DNA of 64,000 bases from Pseudorhodoplanes sinuspersici. Lineage in GTDB: Bacteria > Pseudomonadota > Alphaproteobacteria > Rhizobiales > Xanthobacteraceae. The translations under genes and the position numbers were made by a program. Location: NCBI RefSeq assembly GCF_002119765.1, contig NZ_CP021112.1, positions 4,272,501 through 4,336,500 of the forward strand. Reading direction: 5' to 3'. Below, piece after piece: positions 37,946 through 63,800 of this stretch (within the stretch, counting starts at the first letter, position 1; each line of letters opens with the position of its first letter). The notes under the pieces were generated by a model, which was not told the DNA's origin, made no database searches, and was given only the letters and a program-made list of their open reading frames with translations.

Positions 37946-38926
37946 TCAAAGCTGCGGCGACCACATTGCCGGCACGAGCTCGTAGCCCTTGGCGGTTTTG
38001 GCGATGTAGCCCGAGGCGGGGAAGGGCCAGTGATAGCCGTGTGCCCGCATCTTGTCGGCGGAGGCGCGGTCGAGCAGCGCCTTGCGCGTGGCGACGGCCT
38101 GATTGCCATCCATGTCGAAGGCGACCTGCCATTCCGGATTGCGCACGAACAGCCATGGATTGTTGGTGACATCGGCGAGATACAGCATCGACTGGTTGCC
38201 GGACGCGATCGAAAAGGCCGTGTGCCCCGGTGTGTGACCGGGCGCGGCAATGGCGGTGATGCCGCTTTCGACGTCCTTGCCGGGTTCGAAGCGCTGCACC
38301 TTGGCGGCGATATCGCCGAACACGCGCCGCGCGTTCTTGAACGAGCCTTGCGCCGCTTCCGGCGCCTTGCTCATGTTGCTGTCGTCCATCCAGAACGCCC
38401 ATTCGGCTGCCGGCACGTTGATCGCGGCATTCGGGAAGAACAGCGCATTGTCCTTGGTCTTGATGCCGTTGATATGGTCGGGATGGAAATGCGAGATGTA
38501 GATCGCATCCACCGCTTTCGGATCGATGCCGGCCGCGGCGAGGTTGGCGGCAAAGGTGCCCGATTGCGGTGCCATCGAACCGAGTTGGCCGCCGGTGCCT
38601 GTGTCGAGCGCAATCAGCTTCGAGCCGGTATTGACGAGCAGCGTCGTGAACGGAATGGGCACGACGTCGGTGGGCAGGAACGCATCGGCCAAGGCCTTCT
38701 GCACATCGGCATTTTCCGCGTTGCGGACCCAGTTGGGCGCGAGTTTGAGGAACCAGGTGCCATCGTTGATGGCGGTCACTTCATAATCGCCGACCTTGAA
38801 ACGGTAAAAACCCGGACCCTGCTGGCCGCTTTGCGGCGCGGCGGCAGGGACCGCTTTCGGCAACGCCATGCTGGCCGCCGCCAGAGCGGTACCGGCGAAC
38901 AGGTGACGGCGAGACAATTCGATCAT
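37946..38926 (-). CDS. MBL-fold metallo-hydrolase, Tat-exported
   Basis: From ATG 38926 the product is 326 residues. It starts with a Tat-type signal (LSRRHLFAGTALAAASMALPKAVPAAA). The zinc site is complete: HFHPDH, then APGHTPGH, an Asp in YLADVTN, and a late His in MRAHGYHW. Such periplasmic metallo-beta-lactamase fold enzymes hydrolyse lactones, thioesters or peptides; the substrate is unknown. It converges on the btuB-like gene through a shared terminator. It may belong with the catabolic block downstream, which starts 250 bases away on the other strand. Confidence 0.88.
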   Translation of the reverse strand: MIELSRRHLFAGTALAAASMALPKAVPAAAPQSGQQGPGFYRFKVGDYEVTAINDGTWFLKLAPNWVRNAENADVQKALADAFLPTDVVPIPFTTLLVNTGSKLIALDTGTGGQLGSMAPQSGTFAANLAAAGIDPKAVDAIYISHFHPDHINGIKTKDNALFFPNAAINVPAAEWAFWMDDSNMSKAPEAAQGSFKNARRVFGDIAAKVQRFEPGKDVESGITAIAAPGHTPGHTAFSIASGNQSMLYLADVTNNPWLFVRNPEWQVAFDMDGNQAVATRKALLDRASADKMRAHGYHWPFPASGYIAKTAKGYELVPAMWSPQL

Positions 38927-39177
38927 GACGATTTCTCCCCTTGCTGAGACTGGTTGCATTCGGGACTTGTTCTGATGCAGTGGGCCGATCGCGCCAACAC
39001 CGCCTGCCTATGTCTATTCCATGAAGCTTCGATGGCGATGTGCCGCACAAACGTTATGGTGGGCAAGATATTTCCGCATCCATGCTTGCGGCCGGCCTTG
39101 TCGCCTGTCATCGCCACCTCTAGTCTTCCCGCACAAAAAATGACTGCCGCCTGACGGCAGCTATGGGGAGGTCAGCA

Positions 39178-40173
39178 ATGGTGTTTCCGGTTCACGTCCG
39201 TACTGCGTGTCTTGCTCTATCGTTTGCCCTTTTTGCCGTGACGGGTTTTTCGACCGGGACTCTGGCGCAATCCTATCCATCGCGGCCGGTCACCCTGATG
39301 GTGCCGTTTCCGGCCGGTAGCACCACCGATCTGGTTGGACGGATTCTGGCCGACGAATTGTCCAAAGCTGTTGGGCAGAGCGTGGTGATCGACAATCGCG
39401 GCGGCGCAGGTGGCAGTGTCGGCTCCGAAGCGGTCGCGCGTTCCACGCCGGACGGTTACACGCTGCTGATGGGAACGATCGGCACGCACTCGATCAATCC
39501 GGCCGTCTATGCAAAGATCAACTACGATCCGATCAACGATTTCTCGCCGATCATCCAGTTCGGCACCGCGCCGAATGTGCTGGTCGTCAATCCCGATCTG
39601 CCGGTCAAGAATGTCAAGGATCTGATCGCCTATGTCGCCGCCAATCCGGGCAAGGTGAATTACGGATCGTCCGGCAACGGCACATCCAACCATCTGTCGG
39701 GCGCGATGTTCGTTGCCCGCAATGGGTTGAAGGCGACGCATGTGCCGTATCGCGGCGGCTCGCAGGCGATCACCGATCTTTTGCGGGGCGAAGTGCAGTT
39801 CATGTTCTATCACTATCTGCCGCTGCTCGGTCACATCAAGGACGGCAAGCTGCGTGCGATCGCCATCACCAGCGCCAACCGCATCGATGCCTTGCCGGGC
39901 GTGCCGGTGATGAAAGAGGCCGGCATGGACGATTTCGAAGTGTCGGCCTGGTTCGGCGTCTGGGCGCCGGCCAAGACACCGAAGGACGTCGTGGCCAAAC
40001 TCAACCAGACGATCCTGAAAATCATCAAATCGCCCGAGGTACAGAAGAGCCTGCAGGCGCAGGGCATCGATCCGGTCGCCGGTTCGCCGGAAGACTTGCT
40101 CAATCTCAATAAGGCCGAACTGGCGCGATGGTCCAAGGCGGTGGAGCAGGCGGGCGCGAAATTGTCGAATTGA
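39178..40173 (+). CDS. Bug-family tripartite tricarboxylate transporter binding protein, copy 1
   Basis: From ATG 39178 (ggggagg ribosome site seven bases upstream) the product is 331 residues. A signal peptide is followed by VTLMVPFPAGSTTDLVGRILAD, DNRGGAGGSVGSEAVAR and THVPYRGGSQAITDLLRGEV, hallmarks of Bug/TctC periplasmic binding proteins. These bind carboxylic acids such as aromatic or dicarboxylic acids. The membrane parts TctA and TctB are absent from the window, as is usual for Bug orphans. It leads a catabolic block with a second Bug gene. Confidence 0.93.
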   Translation: MVFPVHVRTACLALSFALFAVTGFSTGTLAQSYPSRPVTLMVPFPAGSTTDLVGRILADELSKAVGQSVVIDNRGGAGGSVGSEAVARSTPDGYTLLMGTIGTHSINPAVYAKINYDPINDFSPIIQFGTAPNVLVVNPDLPVKNVKDLIAYVAANPGKVNYGSSGNGTSNHLSGAMFVARNGLKATHVPYRGGSQAITDLLRGEVQFMFYHYLPLLGHIKDGKLRAIAITSANRIDALPGVPVMKEAGMDDFEVSAWFGVWAPAKTPKDVVAKLNQTILKIIKSPEVQKSLQAQGIDPVAGSPEDLLNLNKAELARWSKAVEQAGAKLSN

Positions 40174-40285
40174 ACGTGGGTGCCATCCCGCCGCGGTGTC
40201 CGACCGAGTGTTTGAGGAACCAAAAGCTGAGGGAGATCGGCCGACCTCCCTCTCATCACAAAATGATCGCTAGGGAGAAAGTCGA

Positions 40286-41269
40286 ATGCTGAATGTTCGC
40301 ACGGCTGCTGCTGTCCTCCTTGCTACACTGGCCGGTCTGGCGTCAGGTTCTGTGTCTGCCGCCGCACAGCAATGGCCGACCAAACCTGTCACCGTCATCG
40401 TGCCCTTCGCGGCGGGCGGCAATGTCGATGCGGCGGCGCGTCTGTTTTCCGAGCGCCTGTCGCAGCGGCTTGGCCAGCAATTCGTGATCGAGAACAAGAG
40501 CGGTGCCGGCGGCAGCATCGGCATTGCCGCGATGGCGAATGCCAAGCCGGATGGTTATACGCTCGCGGTGGTGTCCGCCGGCACGCTGTTCATCCTGCCG
40601 CACATCTACAAGGAGAAGCTCGGTTACAACAGCCAGAAGGACATTCTTCCGATCGCGATGGTCGCCTATCAGCCGAATATGGTGATCGTCGATCCGAAGG
40701 TGCCGGCCAAGACCGTTCCGGAATTCCTGGCCTATCTGAAGAACAATCCCGACAAGCTCAGCTATGGCTCGTCCGGCATCGGCACCTCGCAGCATCTGTG
40801 CATGGAGCTGATTGTGCAGCACACGGGGGCGAAGATCGCGCACGTGCCGTATCGTGCATCCAACCAGATCATTCAGGACCTGATCGGCGGCCAGATCCAG
40901 ATGACCTGCGATCAATTCTCCACGGCCTATCCGCAGGTGCAGGGCGGCAAGGCGCGGGCGATCGCGGTGTCGTCGCTGGAGCGCTATTCCGTCGACCCGT
41001 CGATCCCGGCTCTGGCCGAGACGGTGCCCGGGCTGGAGGTGACATGGACCGCGGTCTTCGTTGCGCCCAGCAAGGTGCCGCCGGAGATCGCCGGAAAGTT
41101 GGCCGCAGAGTTGCGCGAGATCGCCAAGGATCCGGCGATGATCGAGAAGCTCAAGGGGCTTGGCGTGACGCCGATGAGTGTCACCGGCCCCGAACTGCAG
41201 AAGATGATCGCGAGCGATTACGACAAGTGGAAGCCGATTGTCGAGCGTGCGAAGATTCCGCAGCCTTAA
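40286..41269 (+). CDS. Bug-family tripartite tricarboxylate transporter binding protein, copy 2
   Basis: The 327-residue product has a signal peptide (LLATLAGLASGSVSAAAQ) and the same domain plan as its neighbour: VTVIVPFAAGGNVDAAARLF, ENKSGAGGSIGIAAMANAKPDGYTL and HVPYRASNQIIQDLIGGQI. The two are clear paralogues. The gap to the bicupin gene is 21 bases, so they may be co-transcribed. The ligand pocket differs from copy 1, suggesting a distinct but related acid. Confidence 0.93.
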   Translation: MLNVRTAAAVLLATLAGLASGSVSAAAQQWPTKPVTVIVPFAAGGNVDAAARLFSERLSQRLGQQFVIENKSGAGGSIGIAAMANAKPDGYTLAVVSAGTLFILPHIYKEKLGYNSQKDILPIAMVAYQPNMVIVDPKVPAKTVPEFLAYLKNNPDKLSYGSSGIGTSQHLCMELIVQHTGAKIAHVPYRASNQIIQDLIGGQIQMTCDQFSTAYPQVQGGKARAIAVSSLERYSVDPSIPALAETVPGLEVTWTAVFVAPSKVPPEIAGKLAAELREIAKDPAMIEKLKGLGVTPMSVTGPELQKMIASDYDKWKPIVERAKIPQP

Positions 41270-41290
41270 ATCTCCGTTTAGCAAGACTGC

Positions 41291-42574
41291 ATGATTCGCG
41301 CGGACTGGCCGCGCGATCCGCAAAAAAGTTTGTCGCGCTGTGTTAAAAAACAGCGCGGCAATCTGGGTGCGTATGGCGCAAGAGCGCAACAGCGCTTCAC
41401 GCTAGAGACGGATAGTACCGGCCTATCGCGGCGCGACCTGATGGGAGCGGCCGCAGCGACAGGGAGCCTGATCGTGGCTGCGAGCGGTTCGAACACATAT
41501 GGCGACGGCGGACAGCCGCCATTCGGTCCGGGGCCCTCCGTCCTGCAAGGCAAGGAACTGCCGTCCTTCCGCTTTGACTTCAGCGCGCAGAAGCCAAGGA
41601 CAAGCGATGGCGGCTGGGCGAAAGAAGCGACCGTCCTGAAATTTCCGGTTTCGGAAAAGCTCGCCGCTGTGCTGATGCAGCTGGTGCCGGGGGGCTTGCG
41701 TGAATTGCACTGGCACGCCAATGCGGCGGAGTGGGCCTACGTGATCAAGGGACGCTGCCGCGTCACGACGATCGATCCGGACGGACGTTCGGAGATCGTC
41801 GATTTTAATCCGGGCGATGTCTGGTATTTCCCGCGCGGTCACGGTCATTCCATTCAGGGGCTCGGGCCTGACGATTGCGAATTCCTTCTCGTGTTCGACA
41901 ACGGCTATTTCTCCGAGTTCGGCACCTTCAGCATCACCGACTGGATCGGCCATGCACCGGCTGAGGTGTTGTCGAAGAATTTCGGCGTTCCGCCTTCGAC
42001 CTTCGCATCCTTCCCGAAGGATGAGGTGTATCTGGTGAAAGGCGAAGTGCCGGCGCCATTGCCGCCTGAACCGGTGCCCGGTTCACTCGATATCCCGGCG
42101 CTATCTCACCGCTACCCATTCCTCGCACAACGTCCGCAGATTTTCGAGGGCGGCACGTTGCGGCTAGTATCAGAGCGCGAATTCCCGATTTCGACGACGA
42201 TGACCGGCGGCCTGTTGCAGATCAAACCGGGCGGGATGCGCGAGCTGCATTGGCATCCGAATGCCGACGAGTGGCAATATTATCTCAAAGGCAAGGCGCG
42301 GATGACCGTGTTCGGCTCCGGCGGCCGCGCGCGCACCGAGGAATTTGCCGCCGGCGATGTCGGCTATGTGCCGCAGGGCTTTGGCCATTACATCGAGAAT
42401 ATCGGGCCCGACGATCTCGAGGTGGTGCTGGCGTTCAATAGCGGTATCTATCAGTCCATCTCGATCACCGCCTGGATGGCCGCCAATCCGGCGTTGTTGC
42501 TGTCTACCAATTTCGGCGTACCGCAATCGGTCTTTGCGAGTTTCCCGAAGGGCGAGACAACGATGCCGGATTGA
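41291..42574 (+). CDS. Bicupin of the oxalate decarboxylase family, Tat-exported
   Basis: The 427-residue product has an RR signal (LSRRDLMGAAAATG, RR at 47-48) and two cupin domains. Each has a complete metal set: His140, His142, Glu147, His186 in the first and His320, His322, Glu327, His366 in the second. The family turns oxalate into formate and CO2 using manganese. In the lid loop, Bacillus OxdC has SENST; here it is SEFGT (208-212), so the catalytic-type Glu209 is kept while the neighbours differ. The N-terminal 46 residues before RR are long, so a later start is possible. Confidence 0.85.
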   Translation: MIRADWPRDPQKSLSRCVKKQRGNLGAYGARAQQRFTLETDSTGLSRRDLMGAAAATGSLIVAASGSNTYGDGGQPPFGPGPSVLQGKELPSFRFDFSAQKPRTSDGGWAKEATVLKFPVSEKLAAVLMQLVPGGLRELHWHANAAEWAYVIKGRCRVTTIDPDGRSEIVDFNPGDVWYFPRGHGHSIQGLGPDDCEFLLVFDNGYFSEFGTFSITDWIGHAPAEVLSKNFGVPPSTFASFPKDEVYLVKGEVPAPLPPEPVPGSLDIPALSHRYPFLAQRPQIFEGGTLRLVSEREFPISTTMTGGLLQIKPGGMRELHWHPNADEWQYYLKGKARMTVFGSGGRARTEEFAAGDVGYVPQGFGHYIENIGPDDLEVVLAFNSGIYQSISITAWMAANPALLLSTNFGVPQSVFASFPKGETTMPD

Positions 42575-42616
42575 ATCCGGCTTTGTGCGCCGTCCGTTGT
42601 GCTGGGGCGGGATCGG

Positions 42617-43720
42617 TCAGTTGGCCAGAATCTGCTGCCCGCTGTTGTCGCCATAGGCTTCTTCGCGATAGAGCCCTAAGGCTTCCATCACCGGAAGATC
42701 GTTGAAGCTGAACAGGCACGCGTCTTCGCTTTCAGAGGCGTTGGCATGCTCATGCCACATCCATGACGGTACGCAGAAGATATCACGTTCGCGCCAGTCG
42801 AAACGTTTGCCGCCGATGATCGAGTAGCCGCGGCCCTTGGCGACCTGATAGATGAAACTGCCGGTGTGGCGGTGGGCCCGTGTTTTCTCACCGGGCCGGA
42901 GCATCTGCATGCTGGCGCCGATCGTCTGCATCACATGCCCGCCGGTGATCGGATTGACATACTTCATCATGACGCCGTCGAACGGCGAGCCGTCGGTGGC
43001 CTTGCCATAGTCCTGCAGGGCTTCGTAGGTCGGTGCCCATTCATACTTGAACAGCGGCGAATATCCTTTTGACCAGGTGGTGTTGACCGGTGTCAGCCCA
43101 GGATGTCCCCAGGTCTTGCTCGTATCGTTTACCGGATAAGTCACCTCCTGCTGGAGGTTTGGGTGGACGGCATAGAAATTGGCTTCAAGCGCGTTCACCA
43201 ACGGGATATCCAGCCCGTCCTGCCAGATGCAGGGTGTACCGTCCGGCTCGACGCCGTGTTCATGCCAGGTGCCGTTGGGTGTCAGTACGAAGTCGTTGGC
43301 ACCGAGCGTCATCTTGTGTCCGTCGACGATCGTATAAGCGCCGCTGCCTTCCATGATGAAGCGCAGCGCCGAGGCGGAATGCGCATGAGCGGATGCGACT
43401 TCGCCCGGATTCATCACCTGCAGACCGGAATACAGCCAGCCGACCGCCGCTGATACGTCGCGGCGGCCCGGATTGTTGAGATAGACGACCCGCCGTCCGG
43501 CCTTTTCAGGTGTCACCAGTTGCACAGAGCGCAGCACATGGTCGCGCAGGTCGGCGTAGCGCCACAGCACCGGCACGGAGGATGATTGCGGCGCCCATGG
43601 TTCGATCGTGTTGGCGACAGTCCATAACGCGCCGGTTTCGTACTGTTCGAGCTCGCGGTAGTAAGCCTCAAGCTCGGGCGTGTCTTCGACATTGGCGCGG
43701 CCGATGATGTTTTCTCTCAT
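42617..43720 (-). CDS. Gentisate 1,2-dioxygenase-type bicupin (may be salicylate/hydroxynaphthoate dioxygenase)
   Basis: The 367-residue protein is a bicupin ring-cleaving Fe(II) dioxygenase. HAHSASALRFIMEGSGAYT gives His112 and His114, and NGTWHEHG the third ligand His153; the C-terminal cupin is also complete (HRHTGSFIYQV). Family members cleave gentisate, salicylate or 1-hydroxy-2-naphthoate between adjacent ring carbons. It overlaps the nitrilase gene by ATGA, so they are translationally coupled. The neighbouring fumarylpyruvate-hydrolase-like gene fits a gentisate- or salicylate-type route. The exact substrate cannot be told from sequence. Confidence 0.85.
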   Translation of the reverse strand: MRENIIGRANVEDTPELEAYYRELEQYETGALWTVANTIEPWAPQSSSVPVLWRYADLRDHVLRSVQLVTPEKAGRRVVYLNNPGRRDVSAAVGWLYSGLQVMNPGEVASAHAHSASALRFIMEGSGAYTIVDGHKMTLGANDFVLTPNGTWHEHGVEPDGTPCIWQDGLDIPLVNALEANFYAVHPNLQQEVTYPVNDTSKTWGHPGLTPVNTTWSKGYSPLFKYEWAPTYEALQDYGKATDGSPFDGVMMKYVNPITGGHVMQTIGASMQMLRPGEKTRAHRHTGSFIYQVAKGRGYSIIGGKRFDWRERDIFCVPSWMWHEHANASESEDACLFSFNDLPVMEALGLYREEAYGDNSGQQILAN

Positions 43721-44811
43721 TGCGCTCTCCCTGGCTTGCCCGCGCCGCGACCTGCAAAAGCACTGGCCGCTTCGGGGCGTTCGAGCGGCAAATCCATGCG
43801 GTCCCAGTCGGTCTCGGCGGATATGTCCGGCTCGTTTGCACGAGCCGCAGCATCTCCCGAGCCGAGCGGGGAGTGCGCGCGGCGGTTGACGCGAAGATCG
43901 AAGATGTCGAAGCGGTTATAATGGCCGATGATGTCGTGCATCTGCTTGGGCTGAATGCACCGGGCGAGGTCGATCTCGGCATAGACGATGCCTTCGTCGT
44001 CGATCAGCGGCGAACCCACAGTGCGTCCGTCAGGGCCGATGATGCCGGTAAAGGCGCTCGACTTGCGTTCAAGCTTGGCTCGCGCATCGGGGACAAGGCT
44101 TTCCATCGCTTCGATGATCTCTTCAGAAACGGTCGAACACGACACGATGGTGAACAGCTTGCCTTCGAAGGAATGCGCGATCGCGCGCAGCTTGATGGCT
44201 TCCGCCATATCGTAATCGGGAGGCGCGACGGGGAGGGAGATGTAGCTTGCAACATGCACAAGCTCGCCCTGGGCCAGCAGCGAAAACCGCGCCAGCGTGT
44301 TGGTATTCTCGCCGCAGGCCAGTCCGCCCAGCGGGCCGATGGCGGTGTCGTAGACGCGAAGACTGGAGCCGTCGCCGTTTGTCCATGTCAGCTTTTCAGC
44401 CCAGGTCGGCACAAGTTTGCGATGCTTGCCGAGAAGCTTGCCGTCGGGGCCGATGAAGACCAGCGTGTTGTAGACCGCGCCAAGCGAGACCGGGCTGCGT
44501 TCATTCACGCCGATCACCACGTATATTTCCGCCTCGCGCGCAACACGCCGGAGTGCATCGATTTCGGCGCCGGGAACAAGGATCGATGCGCGCACCAACT
44601 TTTCGAACCACGCGCCGCCGCTCACCGGATCGGTGATCCAGTTCCAGTACGGATATCCCGGAACGAACACCTCCGGAAAGGCGACGATCTGCGCGCCGTT
44701 TCTCGCTGCCTCGCGGATCAGCGAACAGGCTTTTTCGATCGTCGCGGGCGTGTCGAGGAAGACAGGTGCCGCTTGCACAGCCGCCGCCTTAAAGCGTGGG
44801 AGCTTCAGCAT
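43717..44811 (-). CDS. Nitrilase (carbon-nitrogen hydrolase)
   Basis: From ATG 44811, with GAGG eight bases upstream, the product is 364 residues (a GTG nine bases earlier is less likely). The catalytic triad is visible: Glu47 (FPEVFVPGYP), Lys132 (HRKLVPT) and Cys166 (ACGENTN). CGENTN is the nitrilase-branch form, as opposed to amidase branches, so it should hydrolyse a nitrile to an acid and ammonia. The product acid may feed the coupled dioxygenase, which is inference from the 4-base overlap. Confidence 0.92.
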   Translation of the reverse strand: MLKLPRFKAAAVQAAPVFLDTPATIEKACSLIREAARNGAQIVAFPEVFVPGYPYWNWITDPVSGGAWFEKLVRASILVPGAEIDALRRVAREAEIYVVIGVNERSPVSLGAVYNTLVFIGPDGKLLGKHRKLVPTWAEKLTWTNGDGSSLRVYDTAIGPLGGLACGENTNTLARFSLLAQGELVHVASYISLPVAPPDYDMAEAIKLRAIAHSFEGKLFTIVSCSTVSEEIIEAMESLVPDARAKLERKSSAFTGIIGPDGRTVGSPLIDDEGIVYAEIDLARCIQPKQMHDIIGHYNRFDIFDLRVNRRAHSPLGSGDAAARANEPDISAETDWDRMDLPLERPEAASAFAGRGAGKPGRAQ

Positions 44812-44844
44812 GATTGTCACCTCGCGGTCAGCGGTCAGCGTCTG

Positions 44845-44856
44845 ATTTTCGAAAAT
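44845..44856. promoter_or_regulatory. Palindromic attttcgaaaat site in front of the nitrilase gene
   Basis: A perfect palindrome lies about 35 bases upstream of the nitrilase start in an AT-rich promoter. The sequence attttcg(a/t)aaatc also appears in the GntR/FAH intergenic region, so one regulator could bind both. Confidence 0.45.
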
Positions 44857-44916
44857 AAATATAATTTTGGAATATGAGTCAATGCGGTTTGCGGTTGTCC
44901 TCTTGATGAGAGGGGC

Positions 44917-45696
44917 TTAGGCCGCACGATGAAAATTGCGTTCGATGGCTTCGCCGGTTTTCCGATAGTGGGCCTTGAGGAGTTCCACGGCCCGCGCGGC
45001 ATCGCGTTTGAGCGCCGCTTTCATGATCGCTTCGTGCTCGGCGTGGATATTGCGGCCTGACGGTTTGCCTTGCGTGCCGGCGATCAGGATCGGTCGACGG
45101 TAACGCTCGGTCTGTGCGTAAAGTTGCGCGGACATGTCGAGCAGGCAGCGTGAATCCGCTGCCCCGATCAGAGCGGCGTGAAAATCGCGATGTCGGCGTT
45201 CCAGTTCTTCATTTTCATCCTCGGTTCTCGGGCGAAGAAGCGCCGACAGGCGCTTGGCGCAACCCGACAGCGCCTGAAACGTGCCCATGACCGATCCCTC
45301 CCAATCGTCGTCGCCATGTTGCACCGAGCGCCGTAACGCCTCACCCTCGATCAGAATGCGAGTCTCAATGCAGTCCCACATTTCGCTCAGCGATAATTCG
45401 GCCACGCGAAAGCCGCGCAAGGCTGATGCCACCACAAGGCGCTCGCTTTGCAGCCGGCTCAAAGCCTCCCGCAGGGGCGAGAAGCTCAAGCCGTATCGCT
45501 CTTTCAGGACCTCCAGGCGCAGCGGCCTGCCGGCGCCGAAGAACCCGTTGAGAATGTCGGCATGCAGACGCTTGTAGGCCTGTTCGCCAAGCGTCGGTCC
45601 GGCTTCCTGGGCGACTGCTGGAGCGTTGCCGTTCCGGCTCGACGCGACGGCGAGGGGCTTGCCCGTGCGCCTGGTGGAATTGCCCTGATCTTTCAT
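44917..45696 (-). CDS. GntR-family regulator with FCD domain
   Basis: The 259-residue protein has a winged-helix domain (about residues 34-100: TLGEQAYKRLHADILNGFFGAG and LSFSPLREALSRLQSERLVV) and an FCD ligand domain (about 105-250) with the metal-binding pattern FHAALIGAADS and NIHAEHEAIMKAAL. FCD regulators sense small carboxylates and usually repress catabolic genes. It lies between the nitrilase (minus) and FAH (plus) genes and very likely controls the block. The N-terminal 30 residues are unstructured. Confidence 0.92.
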   Translation of the reverse strand: MKDQGNSTRRTGKPLAVASSRNGNAPAVAQEAGPTLGEQAYKRLHADILNGFFGAGRPLRLEVLKERYGLSFSPLREALSRLQSERLVVASALRGFRVAELSLSEMWDCIETRILIEGEALRRSVQHGDDDWEGSVMGTFQALSGCAKRLSALLRPRTEDENEELERRHRDFHAALIGAADSRCLLDMSAQLYAQTERYRRPILIAGTQGKPSGRNIHAEHEAIMKAALKRDAARAVELLKAHYRKTGEAIERNFHRAA

Positions 45697-45772
45697 CAGC
45701 CGAACCCTTCGACCTGTTGCCTGTTGAATGCCGCCGCTCAGCGCCTTGTTCGCCCCTGAGCGCCAGTTCCCC

Positions 45773-45810
45773 TATCACATATTATCGTGAATATCACATA
45801 TTTTCGTAAA
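45773..45810. promoter_or_regulatory. Tandem 19-bp repeat operator between the GntR and FAH genes
   Basis: Two adjacent direct copies with exact 19-bp period, tatcacatattatcgtgaa then tatcacatattttcgtaaa, lie in the divergent promoter region. Directly after comes TTGACT, 17 bases, CTAAGT, a plausible promoter for the FAH gene. This has the form of a GntR-type operator. It is too short and single to be a CRISPR array. Confidence 0.7.
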
Positions 45811-45813
45811 TCC

Positions 45814-45842
45814 TTGACTCGGGCCCTTGGTCGCGACTAAGT
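45814..45842 (+). promoter_or_regulatory. Candidate sigma-70 type promoter of the FAH gene
   Basis: TTGACT (45814-45819) and CTAAGT (45837-45842) are separated by 17 bases, 38 bases upstream of the FAH start. The -35 box abuts the tandem operator repeats, so a regulator bound there would block RNA polymerase. Confidence 0.4.
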
Positions 45843-45879
45843 CGCCGACGATGCCGTGCGTCGAAAAGGACTGCGATCC

Positions 45880-46779
45880 ATGAAGCTGGTCACTTATGAG
45901 CGAGAAGGGCAGCGTCGTCTGGGCGTGATCGTCGCTGACTCCGTTGTCGATTTGCCGGACCTCGCCGCCGCAGCGGGAAAAACCTGTCCGCAGGACATGC
46001 TGTCATTCATTCAGCAGAGCCCCGGCGCGCTGGAATTGGCCAAGGCTCTGCTCACCAAGGCCGATTTGATGGCGAGATCGTCCATCCCTCTTAGTCAGAC
46101 GAAGTTGCTCGCGCCGCTGCCGCAAACGCCAAAGGGTGTGATCGGTGTCGGACTGAACTATGTCGCGCACGTTGCGGAATCGAGCCGCACCATGGAAACG
46201 CAGAAGGATGTGCCGTCGCATCCGGTCATCTTCATCAAGCCATCGACATCGATCGTCGGGCCGGAAGAGGCGATCGTGCATGACGCACAGCTGACAAAGA
46301 TGCTGGACTGGGAGGCCGAGCTCGGCGCCGTGATCGGCCGGCGATGCAGGAATGTGTCTGAAACCGAGGCCATGGATTACGTCTTTGGCTACACCTGCGT
46401 GAATGACGTATCGGCAAGGGACTTGCGGCATGGCGGGCAATGGTGCTTCGCCAAGGGGCAGGACACCTATGCGCCGATGGGCCCCTGGATCGTGACCGCG
46501 GACGAGATTGCCGATGCGCACGATCTGGACATCAGTCTGGTCCTGAATGGTGTCGAAAAGCAAAAGAGCAACACGCGGCATATGATTTTCAATATTCCGA
46601 AGCTGATCGCTCATTTGTCGTCGGGCATCACGCTGGAGCCGGGCGATGTCATCGCCACGGGAACGCCGGAGGGTGTGGGCATCAGCCGGACGCCGCCGGA
46701 ATTCATGAAGGCAGGCGATGTGGTGGAGGTGGTGATCGAAAGCGTCGGCACCTTGCGCAATCACGTCATCGCCGCATGA
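45880..46779 (+). CDS. Fumarylacetoacetate hydrolase family protein (fumarylpyruvate hydrolase-like)
   Basis: From ATG 45880 (aaaagga ribosome site) the product is 299 residues. It has the FAH motifs: VIGVGLNYVAHVAESS, FIKPSTSIVGPEEAI, DWEAELGAVIGRR (metal-binding acidic residues) and GDVIATGTPEGVG. FAH-family enzymes cleave fumarylpyruvate, oxaloacetate-type or other beta-diketo acids. With a gentisate-type dioxygenase in the same block, hydrolysis of the ring-cleavage product is the likely job. An upstream in-frame GTG at 45856 is discarded. Confidence 0.9.
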   Translation: MKLVTYEREGQRRLGVIVADSVVDLPDLAAAAGKTCPQDMLSFIQQSPGALELAKALLTKADLMARSSIPLSQTKLLAPLPQTPKGVIGVGLNYVAHVAESSRTMETQKDVPSHPVIFIKPSTSIVGPEEAIVHDAQLTKMLDWEAELGAVIGRRCRNVSETEAMDYVFGYTCVNDVSARDLRHGGQWCFAKGQDTYAPMGPWIVTADEIADAHDLDISLVLNGVEKQKSNTRHMIFNIPKLIAHLSSGITLEPGDVIATGTPEGVGISRTPPEFMKAGDVVEVVIESVGTLRNHVIAA

Positions 46780-60867: not shown

Positions 60868-63800
60868 ATGCGCCCCGAGTCTGTCACTCTTGCTGGTTAC
60901 AAGGCTGATGGCAAAAAGAGTGTCGCCTTTGTCCTGCCTGAGAAAGTTGCCCCTGGCACGGTCGTCAATTTTACGGATGGCACATGGCAGAAAAGCGATT
61001 CCAGCGAATGGAAACTGTCTCACGTAAAAAACCACTGGAGCTGGACCGCAACGGATAACGTGGATGCCGGTACGGCGATCAACATCGACGATCTGTTGAC
61101 AACAGGCTCGGCCACACCAGGTTCGGGTGACGTCGCGACGAGCAATAATGCGGATGGCAGCAAACATGCTGTTTCGGCTTACATTGGCAGCTCGACCAAC
61201 CCGACATTCCTTGCGCCCGTTGATACAAACACATCCTCGAATGAATCCGGATTGACGGCGGGCCTGTACAGGGTTGCTGCGCCGACCATCGTTCTTGACA
61301 GGGCGAAGGTTTACGAAAGCACCGGTTTTCAGACACCTCAGTTGATTGGGACTTACTCGGCCGCCTCCATTGAGCAGAATGCAGAAGACAGCATGGATGG
61401 CGACGACACCGTCGAAGTCCGCGCCGGCGCCCCAGTCAATGGGCCACTTGATGGCGGTACGGGTGAAGACACACTCAAGCTGATCGGTCCGGGCGTCGGC
61501 ACACTCGGTGCCAATGCCAATTTCGAAAATCTCGATGTGCAGAGCGGCATGTGGACGCTGCAAAGCGATGCCTATGACACTGTGAATGTCGCGACTGGCG
61601 CGATAGTGACGTCGCAGCTCAAGCTTGCCGATCAGGGTAAGATGAAGGTTGCTCTCGGCGGCTCGGTGCTCGTCACCAATGGCGATGATGCCGTCGTGGC
61701 CGAAGGCGCAGCCAGCATCGAGAATGCCGGCTTGGTCCAGGCGCTCGGTATGCAAGGCACCACGCCCGCGCGGGCGGTCAACCTCGCCGGCGGTTCTGTC
61801 TACAACAAACTCGGCGGCATCATTCTGGCGCAGGGCGCAGCCATCGTCTCGACCGCGGCTCCTGCCCCCGGCGTCGAAATCGTCAACGATGGCATGATTC
61901 AGAGCCTGTCGGGTCAGGCTATCGTCCTCAACGGCAACGAGGGCGATCTTCTGGTCAATACCCGGTCGGGTTCGATCGTCGGTACGGTGTCCACCGGCGG
62001 CGGCAATGATCTGGTAACGAACCAAGGTTCGGTCTCCGCGGCCAACGGCACGGCATTCGACCTCGGCGATGGAAACGATACCCTCAATCTCCACGATGGT
62101 TCGACGGTCGTCGGCAAGATCCTGCTCGGCGCAGGCAATGATGTGCTGTCGTCGCAATCGGCGAGCGATCTGGTAATCGATGCGGGTGCTGGTCAGGATT
62201 CGATCGCCACGGGCGATGGTAACGACCACATCATCGGCGGCGCCGGTATCGATCTGATCCACGCGGGAGGCGGCAATGATTTCGTCGATGGTGGTGCAGA
62301 CAATGACCAAATCCGCGGCGGTGACGGCAACGATGAACTGAGCGGCGGTGCTGGCAACGACTATCTCGAAGGCGGCAATGGCAATGACATCATCCGCGGC
62401 GATGATGGCAACGACGAGATCCACGGCAACGACGGTGACGACAACCTGCAGGGTGCGGCCGGGTCCGACACCATCTGGGGTGGCGCCGGAAATGACAAGA
62501 TCAACGGCGGCGGGTCTGCCGACTTGCTCTACGGCGACGCCGGGCAGGACACGATCTATGGCAGCGATGGCAATGATGAAATCCATGGTGGCGCCGACAA
62601 CGATCAGCTTCATGGCGAAGGCGGCGATGACACGATCTATGGCGATGCCGGCAACGACACGCTGTACGGCGGCATTGGGCGGGACACGCTGACCGGCGGC
62701 GACGGCAACGACCAGATCTATGGTCAGGACGGCGACGATACGCTGATCGGCGGCGCCGGGTTCGATAAGCTGCATGGCGGCACGGGGATCGACACCGCGG
62801 ATTATTCGCAGGACGGCGAAGCTATCTATGCTCGGCTCGATCAAGGTTGGGCCATGGCTCAGGCCGGCCGGCTGCCGAACTGGACGGATCTCGTTGCCGG
62901 TATCAATCGCAACACGATCGAGCACGACGATCTGATCGAAATCGAGAACATTACCGGGACGGCCTTCAACGACGAAATCGTGGGTAATTCCGGTGACAAC
63001 GTCATCAAGGGCGGCGCCGGGAATGACCTTCTTGCCGGCCTCGGCGGCAACGACACGATCTATGGCGGCGAAGGCGACGACACCATCGTGGCGGGGGGCG
63101 GCGATCAGATCTATGGCGATCAGGGCAATGACACGATCGAAATTTCGGTCGCGGACGGCACCCCAGCCTCGATTGATGGCGGCGAAGGCAACGACACCGT
63201 GAAGCTGCTTGGCACCGGTACGGGTTCTCTTGGCGCGACAAGCAGCATCGAGAACTTGCTTGTCCAGTCCGGCATCTGGTCAGTTGCGGCCAGCGACTAT
63301 TCGTCGGTCACCATCGAGAATGGCGCGACCGTCACCAGCACGCTCACGCTCAACAATCACGATGCGCTGACGGTCGAAAATGGCGGCACGCTGAGAGCCG
63401 CCACCGCGATGAACTGGGCCGGCGGCGGCAATGCGGTGGTGGACAATGCAGGGCTGATCGAAGCGGTAACCCGTGTTCTCAACACCACCACGGGCGCCAC
63501 TGGCTCCCTGACCTTGAACAACGCTGCCGGCGGCGTAGTCCGCGGCGCGTTGAGCCCGCAGCAGGCTGCTCATGCCGATGCGACCATCACGATCAACAAT
63601 GCCGGTGTGATGGAGGCCAACGGTCGCGTTATGGACTTCCGCAATTTCGATGGAAACGGCGCCTCGGTGGTGATCAACAATCTCGCTGGCGGCGTCATCC
63701 GGCAATATGGCAGCAACACCGACGTGATCCGCCCGGGCAATGACGGTGTTGTCAACAACTGGGGAACAATCACGACAGATCCCGGCTTTGTCGGTGGTGG

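Follow-up and report, generated by a model that had tools for sequence, protein, structure and literature searches.

The window analysed in this study is a 64,000-nucleotide stretch of the Pseudorhodoplanes sinuspersici genome (RefSeq assembly GCF_002119765.1, contig NZ_CP021112.1, positions 4,272,501 to 4,336,500). At 39178-46779 it carries seven neighbouring genes, encoding two TctC/Bug receptors (Bug1 and Bug2), a Tat-type bicupin, a gentisate-dioxygenase-like bicupin (GDO), a nitrilase-branch CN-hydrolase (NIT), an FCD-type GntR regulator and an FAH-family hydrolase (FAH) (Table 1). The set that is conserved in other genomes is made up of four genes (FCD-GntR, NIT, GDO and FAH), not seven, and these four probably form a jointly controlled unit that opens an amino-aromatic ring of the type left over from auxin and frees the nitrogen after ring opening.

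Table 1. Genes and candidate operators at the locus (positions in the window).
Feature	Position	Strand	Basis or remark
Bug1 receptor, TctC/Bug protein	39178-40173	+	Pfam TctC; neighbour of the candidate module
Bug2 receptor, TctC/Bug protein	40286-41269	+	Pfam TctC; neighbour of the candidate module
Tat-type bicupin, oxalate decarboxylase family	41291-42574	+	TIGR03404 above cut-off; RR motif; neighbour
GDO, gentisate-dioxygenase-like bicupin (GDOsp-type), predicted 5-hydroxyanthranilate 1,2-dioxygenase	42617-43720	-	phmmer match to 3BU7
NIT, nitrilase-branch CN-hydrolase, predicted maleamate (or maleamylpyruvate) amidase	43717-44811	-	Pfam CN_hydrolase
FCD-type GntR regulator	44917-45696	-	Pfam GntR and FCD
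FAH-family hydrolase, predicted to remove pyruvate from the ring-cleavage product	45880-46779	+	Pfam FAA_hydrolase
Operator O1 (candidate)	44845-44875	.	Exact ATTTTCGAAAAT and a weaker copy 19 bp on
Operator O2 (candidate)	45781-45811	.	Two copies with 19-bp spacing between the divergent GntR and FAH genes

The seven genes, their families and an ATGA overlap had been described in the initial annotation and were confirmed, as were the strands: every reading frame is open, profile matches agree with the family assignments, and the stop of NIT overlaps the start of GDO as ATGA. In the annotation of Sulfitobacter pTHAF37_e the two genes likewise overlap by 4 bp. GntR, NIT and GDO are read leftward and FAH diverges from GntR, while Bug1-Bug2-bicupin run rightward and end against the end of GDO. 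The NIT start was set by homologues at the ATG at 44811 (a longer frame begins with GTG at 44820), and for FAH an alternative GTG start at 45856 is also open. Both PF00392 and PF07729 scored above cut-off in the regulator, which places it in the FCD type.

A scan of named genomes with GDO yielded 533 stretches with a GDO relative, from which the best 80 (at least 77% identity, mostly Bradyrhizobium) were kept; counts on these loci describe the nearest kin only. Nine plasmid regions were added, seven picked from NIT matches and two from the GDO list, so that NIT counts including plasmids are inflated. A match of at least 55% identity over 150 residues, at any place in the locus, was counted as NIT; this gave 34 of the 80 GDO loci, the uninflated figure, and 41 of 89 with the plasmid regions. 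FAH lay near GDO in at least 71 of the 80, a lower bound because L053 and L058 lost FAH through match merging or length. In the plasmid collection, 17 records had GDO at 60% or more, and all nine with NIT at 60% or more had GDO within 1.5 kb of NIT. The gene set extends to Rhodobacterales, Burkholderiales and one actinomycete, Embleya, where the order is NIT-GDO-FAH-isomerase; partial matches were excluded from the trees used below. The initial annotation had proposed a search for the gene order in other genomes as a check; NIT, GDO and FAH are linked across many genera. One copy in Leisingera thetidis (pBMJM1_2, L119) looks decayed, with fragmented GDO, FAH and isomerase matches, unlike another L. 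thetidis plasmid record, in which the GDO match is in one piece.

Evidence for joint control came from the gaps beside the regulator. FCD regulators lie near GDO in 17 of the 80 loci and are divergent from it in 15, and a repeated palindrome was noticed in these GntR-GDO gaps. TTTCGAAAA occurred in 13 of the 15 gaps (2,739 bp), compared with five matches in the remaining 247,184 bp of the same loci; the 12-mer ATTTTCGAAAAT, with at most one mismatch, occurred in 10 of 15 gaps and four times elsewhere in those loci; and a tandem form, CGAAAAT-N12-CGAA with 19-bp spacing, was present in 10 of 15 gaps and absent from the other 246,884 bp. In the window, ATTTTCGAAAAT with at most one mismatch was observed three times against 0.16 expected (44845, 45800 and 61519). 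The repeat at 45800 was seen first, and the exact site at 44845 was still unknown when the motif was drawn. That exact site lies 33 bp before the NIT start codon and is followed at 44864 by a copy with two mismatches (O1), and the O2 copies in the GntR/FAH gap, ATTATCGTGAAT and ATTTTCGTAAAT, keep the 19-bp spacing. The third near-operator, AATTTCGAAAAT at 61519-61530, is inside a 691-codon open frame and is probably a chance match. A degenerate tandem pattern, written to fit both O1 and O2, was found nowhere else in the 5.97-Mb genome (its reversed control gave 0 matches), and among relatives it was present in 6 of the 15 GntR-GDO gaps, with no occurrence in the remainder of those loci.

No operator site was found at Bug1, Bug2 or the bicupin gene in the motif scan of the window. 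Because operators are shared at O1 and O2 and lacking at these three genes, the sequence suggests a regulon of GntR, NIT-GDO and FAH, in which the FCD regulator would bind the tandem ATTTTCGAAAAT-type sites and control both promoters. The linkage and shared operators of the four-gene module are well supported by these comparisons, and its chemistry is what we infer in the following. The genes could also be unrelated neighbours brought together by chance, with FAH on the opposite strand and Bug genes that we take to be common orphans, but this explanation is strongly disfavoured and highly improbable in view of a linkage that crosses many genera into Actinomycetota and of shared operators that in their tandem form are unique to this locus within the genome.

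Most of the Bradyrhizobium loci found are of the auxin-degrading iad type, with a Rieske small subunit, CoA ligase, SDR, two MarR regulators and the subunits of an indolepyruvate-type oxidoreductase (IOR), followed by NIT-GDO-FAH-thioesterase. In one of them (L035) the MarR protein matched PDB 7KYM over its full length with 306.8 bits, and 7KYM is the B. japonicum regulator named in sections of PMC11630574. In B. japonicum, indole-3-acetic acid (IAA) raised iorB 7.6-fold and iotA 30.7-fold, according to part of PMC3788728. The iad pathway runs via isatin and isatinic acid to anthranilic acid in the sections of PMC9613470 and PMC12633357 available to us, and anthranilate is its endpoint there and in those of PMC11630574; the word 'gentisate' is absent from the main texts of PMC9613470 and PMC12633357. 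The initial annotation knew of no described system with this exact set. The set is not confined to this genome: in Bradyrhizobium it belongs to iad-type auxin-degradation loci, one with the 7KYM-matching regulator. The window locus is not itself of this type: a Rieske oxygenase, MarR and IOR were sought together among ten window genes at 35-47 kb and none was found, and IOR had no match within the window. Thioesterase and IOR genes accompany NIT-GDO-FAH in L035, L038, L053 and L115, which suggests that isatinate is taken to anthraniloyl-CoA rather than directly to free anthranilate.

Other relatives show a fuller set of genes. On Caballeronia pSBC1_4 the order is IORalpha-IORbeta-thioesterase-salicylyl-CoA 5-hydroxylase-GDO-FAH-NIT-maleate isomerase-MarR-isatin hydrolase; the hydroxylase scored 1333 bits against a family cut-off of 1078, and the isatin hydrolase, annotated as 'cyclase', matched 5NMP with 461 bits. 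NIT appears to be the only obvious nitrogen-releasing enzyme in this set. In Shinella, a 'cyclase' matched isatin hydrolase 5NNA (336 bits) and an 'Asp/Glu racemase' matched maleate cis-trans isomerase 4FQ7 (332 bits), with both cysteine stretches kept. The R. pomeroyi locus combines IOR, NIT, GDO, FAH, isomerase and a tripartite transporter; the GDO encoded there was crystallised as GDOsp (3BU7). Ten loci (L069, L071, L075, L077, L078, L080, L083, L086, L106 and L107) carry GDO with IOR, an acyl-CoA-dehydrogenase-like protein, RidA (c74) and flavin reductase, and no nitrilase; such RidA-bearing loci possibly handle nitrogen in another way.

NIT keeps E47, K132, E139 and C166, which we take to be the Glu-Lys-Glu-Cys catalytic set, and these residues are conserved in all 41 GDO-linked relatives and in all 17 others. 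The GDO-linked copies group on the same side of a tree branch with support 88/94 and show fixed changes around the catalytic residues. NIT scored 237.1 bits against the Nit6803-family nitrilase model TIGR04048, below its cut-off of 502.6. The nearest homologues without GDO (L164-L166) have differing contexts, with no substrate indicated. In L099, L100, L108, L112 and L121, a second nitrilase clade with a CWEN motif is found directly after FAH, together with flavin reductase and an FCD regulator.

The partners of NIT bear on its position in the route. Among loci without iad-type IOR (IORalpha at 85% or more) and with 4 kb present on both sides, all 12 with NIT carried maleate isomerase and none of the 30 lacking NIT did (Fisher p = 9e-11, uncorrected for kinship), after 7 of 49 loci with flanks shorter than 4 kb had been dropped, including L033, which has NIT and no isomerase on a short contig. 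Without the nine plasmid regions the figures were 5 of 5 and 0 of 28 (p = 4e-6, likewise uncorrected). Well-supported branches of the GDO tree gave four independent pairs only, and all four agree (sign test p = 0.125); over all loci including the iad-type, four pairs agree and two have no isomerase difference, with loci less than 3.5 kb from a contig end left out. NIT stands immediately before the isomerase in L087, L091, L110 and L115. This pairing outside iad-type loci would place NIT after ring cleavage, as a predicted maleamate (or maleamylpyruvate) amidase, and it speaks against the order of nitrile to acid to ring cleavage that had been proposed.

NIT might instead act as a genuine nitrilase at the head of the pathway, converting for instance indole-3-acetonitrile to IAA in iad loci, with GDO and FAH as an ordinary gentisate-type lower pathway. 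Its nitrilase-branch sequence with the Glu-Lys-Glu-Cys set intact and the auxin context of the iad loci are consistent with this, and an accessory upstream step would explain the loss of NIT from 12 of 40 iad-type loci without an evident substitute. We consider it unlikely, because five loci (L087, L091, L097, L110 and L116) hold NIT, GDO, FAH and maleate isomerase together with no IOR or isatin hydrolase found, because NIT goes with the isomerase outside iad-type loci, and because the window NIT overlaps GDO and the pair shares its operator type with FAH/GntR.

The dioxygenase itself belongs with GDOsp. The window GDO matched 3BU7 with 599 bits in phmmer (68.5% identity, 99% of the query covered), and it scored 336.8 bits against the gentisate 1,2-dioxygenase equivalog TIGR02272, under the curated cut-off of 442.1. 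In an alignment of 96 clade rows at 60% identity or more, some of which may repeat a genome, and 14 comparison rows below 55%, the N-terminal three-histidine iron site (His112/His114/His153) was present in 96 of 96 and 14 of 14 rows. A second three-histidine site in the C-terminal cupin (His283/His285/His323) was present in 96 of 96 clade rows and complete in none of the 14 others (His283 and His285 in 0 of 14, His323 in 2 of 14). The window GDO has this second site and is thus of the dual-site GDOsp type, and its clade also differs from more distant GDO-like relatives at many fixed positions.

These data bear on whether the module degrades gentisate or a substituted salicylate, with NIT taking an amide or nitrile off another compound. 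GDOsp was named gentisate 1,2-dioxygenase, many relatives are GDO-FAH-flavin reductase loci without NIT, and the salicylyl-CoA 5-hydroxylase would yield gentisate if its substrate were salicylyl-CoA. We regard this reading as doubtful, since two further GDO-like genes elsewhere in the window genome, 36% and 39% identical to GDO, could serve gentisate, and since the second metal site, the many fixed differences from such relatives and the association of NIT with maleate isomerase all count against it. The GDO family as a whole probably has a part in more than one pathway.

Enzymes of the GDO type break the bond that joins the carboxyl-bearing carbon to the ortho-substituted one, and if the ortho substituent is an amino group, the product is an amide. 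There is, in our estimate, about an even chance that GntR, NIT-GDO and FAH are a regulon for the lower pathway of 2-amino-5-hydroxybenzoate (5-hydroxyanthranilate), with substrates and reactions deduced from the gene context. GDO would cut 5-hydroxyanthranilate between C1 (carboxyl) and C2 (amino), leaving the amino-bearing carbon as the amide of maleamylpyruvate; FAH would release pyruvate and maleamate; and NIT would convert maleamate to maleate and ammonia, or act on maleamylpyruvate ahead of FAH. Maleate would then go to fumarate by maleate isomerase, which is encoded with NIT in many relatives and by an unlinked gene in the window genome (2,553,411). In relatives the route may be fed from IAA or isatin by isatin hydrolase, the IOR (isatinate to anthraniloyl-CoA), a 5-hydroxylase acting on the CoA ester and a thioesterase, and for the Caballeronia set the predicted intermediates are isatin, isatinate, anthraniloyl-CoA, 5-hydroxyanthraniloyl-CoA, 5-hydroxyanthranilate, maleamylpyruvate, maleamate and pyruvate, maleate and ammonia, and fumarate. 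More tentatively, and with somewhat less than even confidence, we propose that this is a further aerobic anthranilate/auxin route, in which dual-site GDOsp-type cleavage of 5-hydroxyanthranilate keeps the nitrogen as an amide until a nitrilase-fold maleamate amidase frees it, and which would be the missing lower part of iad degradation.

The window genome holds candidates for several of these steps. The FAH of a Bradyrhizobium iad-type locus finds its best match in this genome in the window FAH (52%, against 44% for the runner-up), and there are isatin-hydrolase-like genes (62% and 58%), IOR genes (64% and 55%), a 5-hydroxylase (51%) that scores above its family cut-off and has a CoA ligase gene close by, and a maleate isomerase (67%), the last in what is presumably a nicotinate locus (L140). 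In a whole-genome pattern search, the tandem operator was absent at the isatin-hydrolase-like, IOR, 5-hydroxylase and maleate isomerase genes.

Several observations weigh against the amidase and 5-hydroxyanthranilate assignment. The closest solved relatives of NIT are nitrilases, it is nitrilase-branch by sequence, and this branch usually prefers nitriles over amides; the second CN-hydrolase clade (c120), sited after FAH, has the classical CWEN nitrilase motif. GDO is found with flavin reductase in 22 loci that have neither CN-hydrolase clade and is therefore not dependent on NIT, and GDOsp carries the name gentisate dioxygenase. The operator test placed no hydroxylase within the window's regulon. 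There is no isomerase near the window NIT or in L033, its nearest GDO relative (short contig), and 27 of 28 NIT-bearing iad-type loci have none nearby. Twelve of 40 iad-type loci have GDO without intact NIT, and in four of these, remnants of 39-52 residues with 60-75% identity lie just upstream of GDO (L043 and L050 at 7827, L054 at 7784, L084 at 2941), pointing to NIT loss. Nine NIT-lacking iad-type genomes were searched for substitutes, including homologues of NicF, the maleamate amidase of the nicotinate lower pathway, in which NicE is the maleate isomerase. The best NIT match elsewhere was 47% in one genome and 38-39% in the other eight, a NicF-like hydrolase was found in 3 of 9 (2 of 12 NIT-bearing genomes), and maleate isomerase in 1 of 9 (3 of 12 NIT-bearing, one only 29% identical). 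In these Bradyrhizobium genomes a close NIT, a NicF-like enzyme or the isomerase was thus mostly not found, which weighs against the amidase reading or implies an unrecognised substitute, and the few isomerase and NicF-like matches mean that iad-type strains end the route differently or that the amidase reading is wrong for them. Finally, 5-nitrosalicylate 1,2-dioxygenase (5NSDO), a different cupin, is described as inactive on 5-hydroxyanthranilate in sections of PMC10306065.

Membership of the remaining three genes in the module is not supported. The initial annotation had assigned all seven genes to one job, and this held for NIT, GDO, FAH and GntR, by linkage and shared operators, but not for the bicupin and the Bug proteins. 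The bicupin scored 407.9 bits against TIGR03404 (cut-off 254.2) and belongs to the oxalate decarboxylase family; it was rejected as a pathway member, as the flanks of up to 1.5 kb around its homologues held no Bug, GDO, NIT or FAH in any of 18 loci. The Bugs were not supported as members of the module: they have no operator, Bug genes are common, and those near relatives' GDO or FAH recur in no clear pattern; they may still serve uptake, given Bug-like genes near GDO or FAH in L033, L034 and L073 and the full tripartite transporter in R. pomeroyi. Hydroxybenzonitriles, the suggested substrates, were likewise rejected, with no aromatic nitrile genes in the neighbourhoods read. A single pathway of nitrile to acid to ring cleavage with dedicated uptake and bicupin, for which physical proximity and these Bug-like and transporter genes in relatives could be cited, is very unlikely, as the bicupin is unlinked in its 18 homologous loci, Bug and bicupin genes have no operator, and no aromatic nitrile genes were seen in the neighbourhoods read. 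At 37946-38959, between a TonB receptor and the Bug genes, lies a gene for an MBL-fold protein whose N-terminus contains RR; it resembles the AidB lactonase at 167 bits, short of the cut-off of 360.

In the open-licence PMC papers, we recognised no described link of these genes, a search that does not establish unpublished status. Work on iad auxin degradation stops at anthranilate in the sections available to us, and the present locus, together with its relatives, suggests an eventual use for ring and nitrogen, a point relevant to the benefit that rhizobacteria such as Bradyrhizobium draw from destroying auxin. The proposed route would also offer a natural substrate that can be tested on the solved enzyme GDOsp, predict amidase activity for one clade of nitrilase-like proteins, and add a local regulon whose operator is defined.

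Several known systems can be compared with the module. GDOsp from Ruegeria (Silicibacter) pomeroyi is of the same subfamily as the window GDO, which keeps its second metal site; in R. pomeroyi its gene is flanked by NIT and FAH and followed by maleate isomerase, a setting which suggests that an enzyme named for gentisate naturally acts on an amino compound. Sections of PMC10306065 note GDOsp for its two ferrous centres. Auxin-degrading iad loci are known from Bradyrhizobium and Variovorax; those of Bradyrhizobium, with NIT-GDO-FAH-thioesterase beside IOR and MarR, are kin of the window module, which differs in having an FCD regulator in place of MarR and no IOR. The nicotinate lower pathway shares the predicted last steps from maleamate through maleate to fumarate, and homology links the isomerase of relatives to maleate cis-trans isomerases. 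NicF belongs to the isochorismatase-type hydrolases, whereas here a nitrilase-fold protein would perform the maleamate step. 5NSDO resembles GDO in cupin ring cleavage of an ortho-substituted benzoate, and the same sections of PMC10306065 describe it as a monocupin that is inactive on gentisate as well. Nocardia opaca degrades anthranilate by a gentisate route (Cain 1968, as cited in part of PMC4539516) that has 5-hydroxyanthranilate among its intermediates. That route loses the amine before ring cleavage and proceeds through gentisate and maleylpyruvate, whereas in the one proposed here the nitrogen would be kept until after cleavage.

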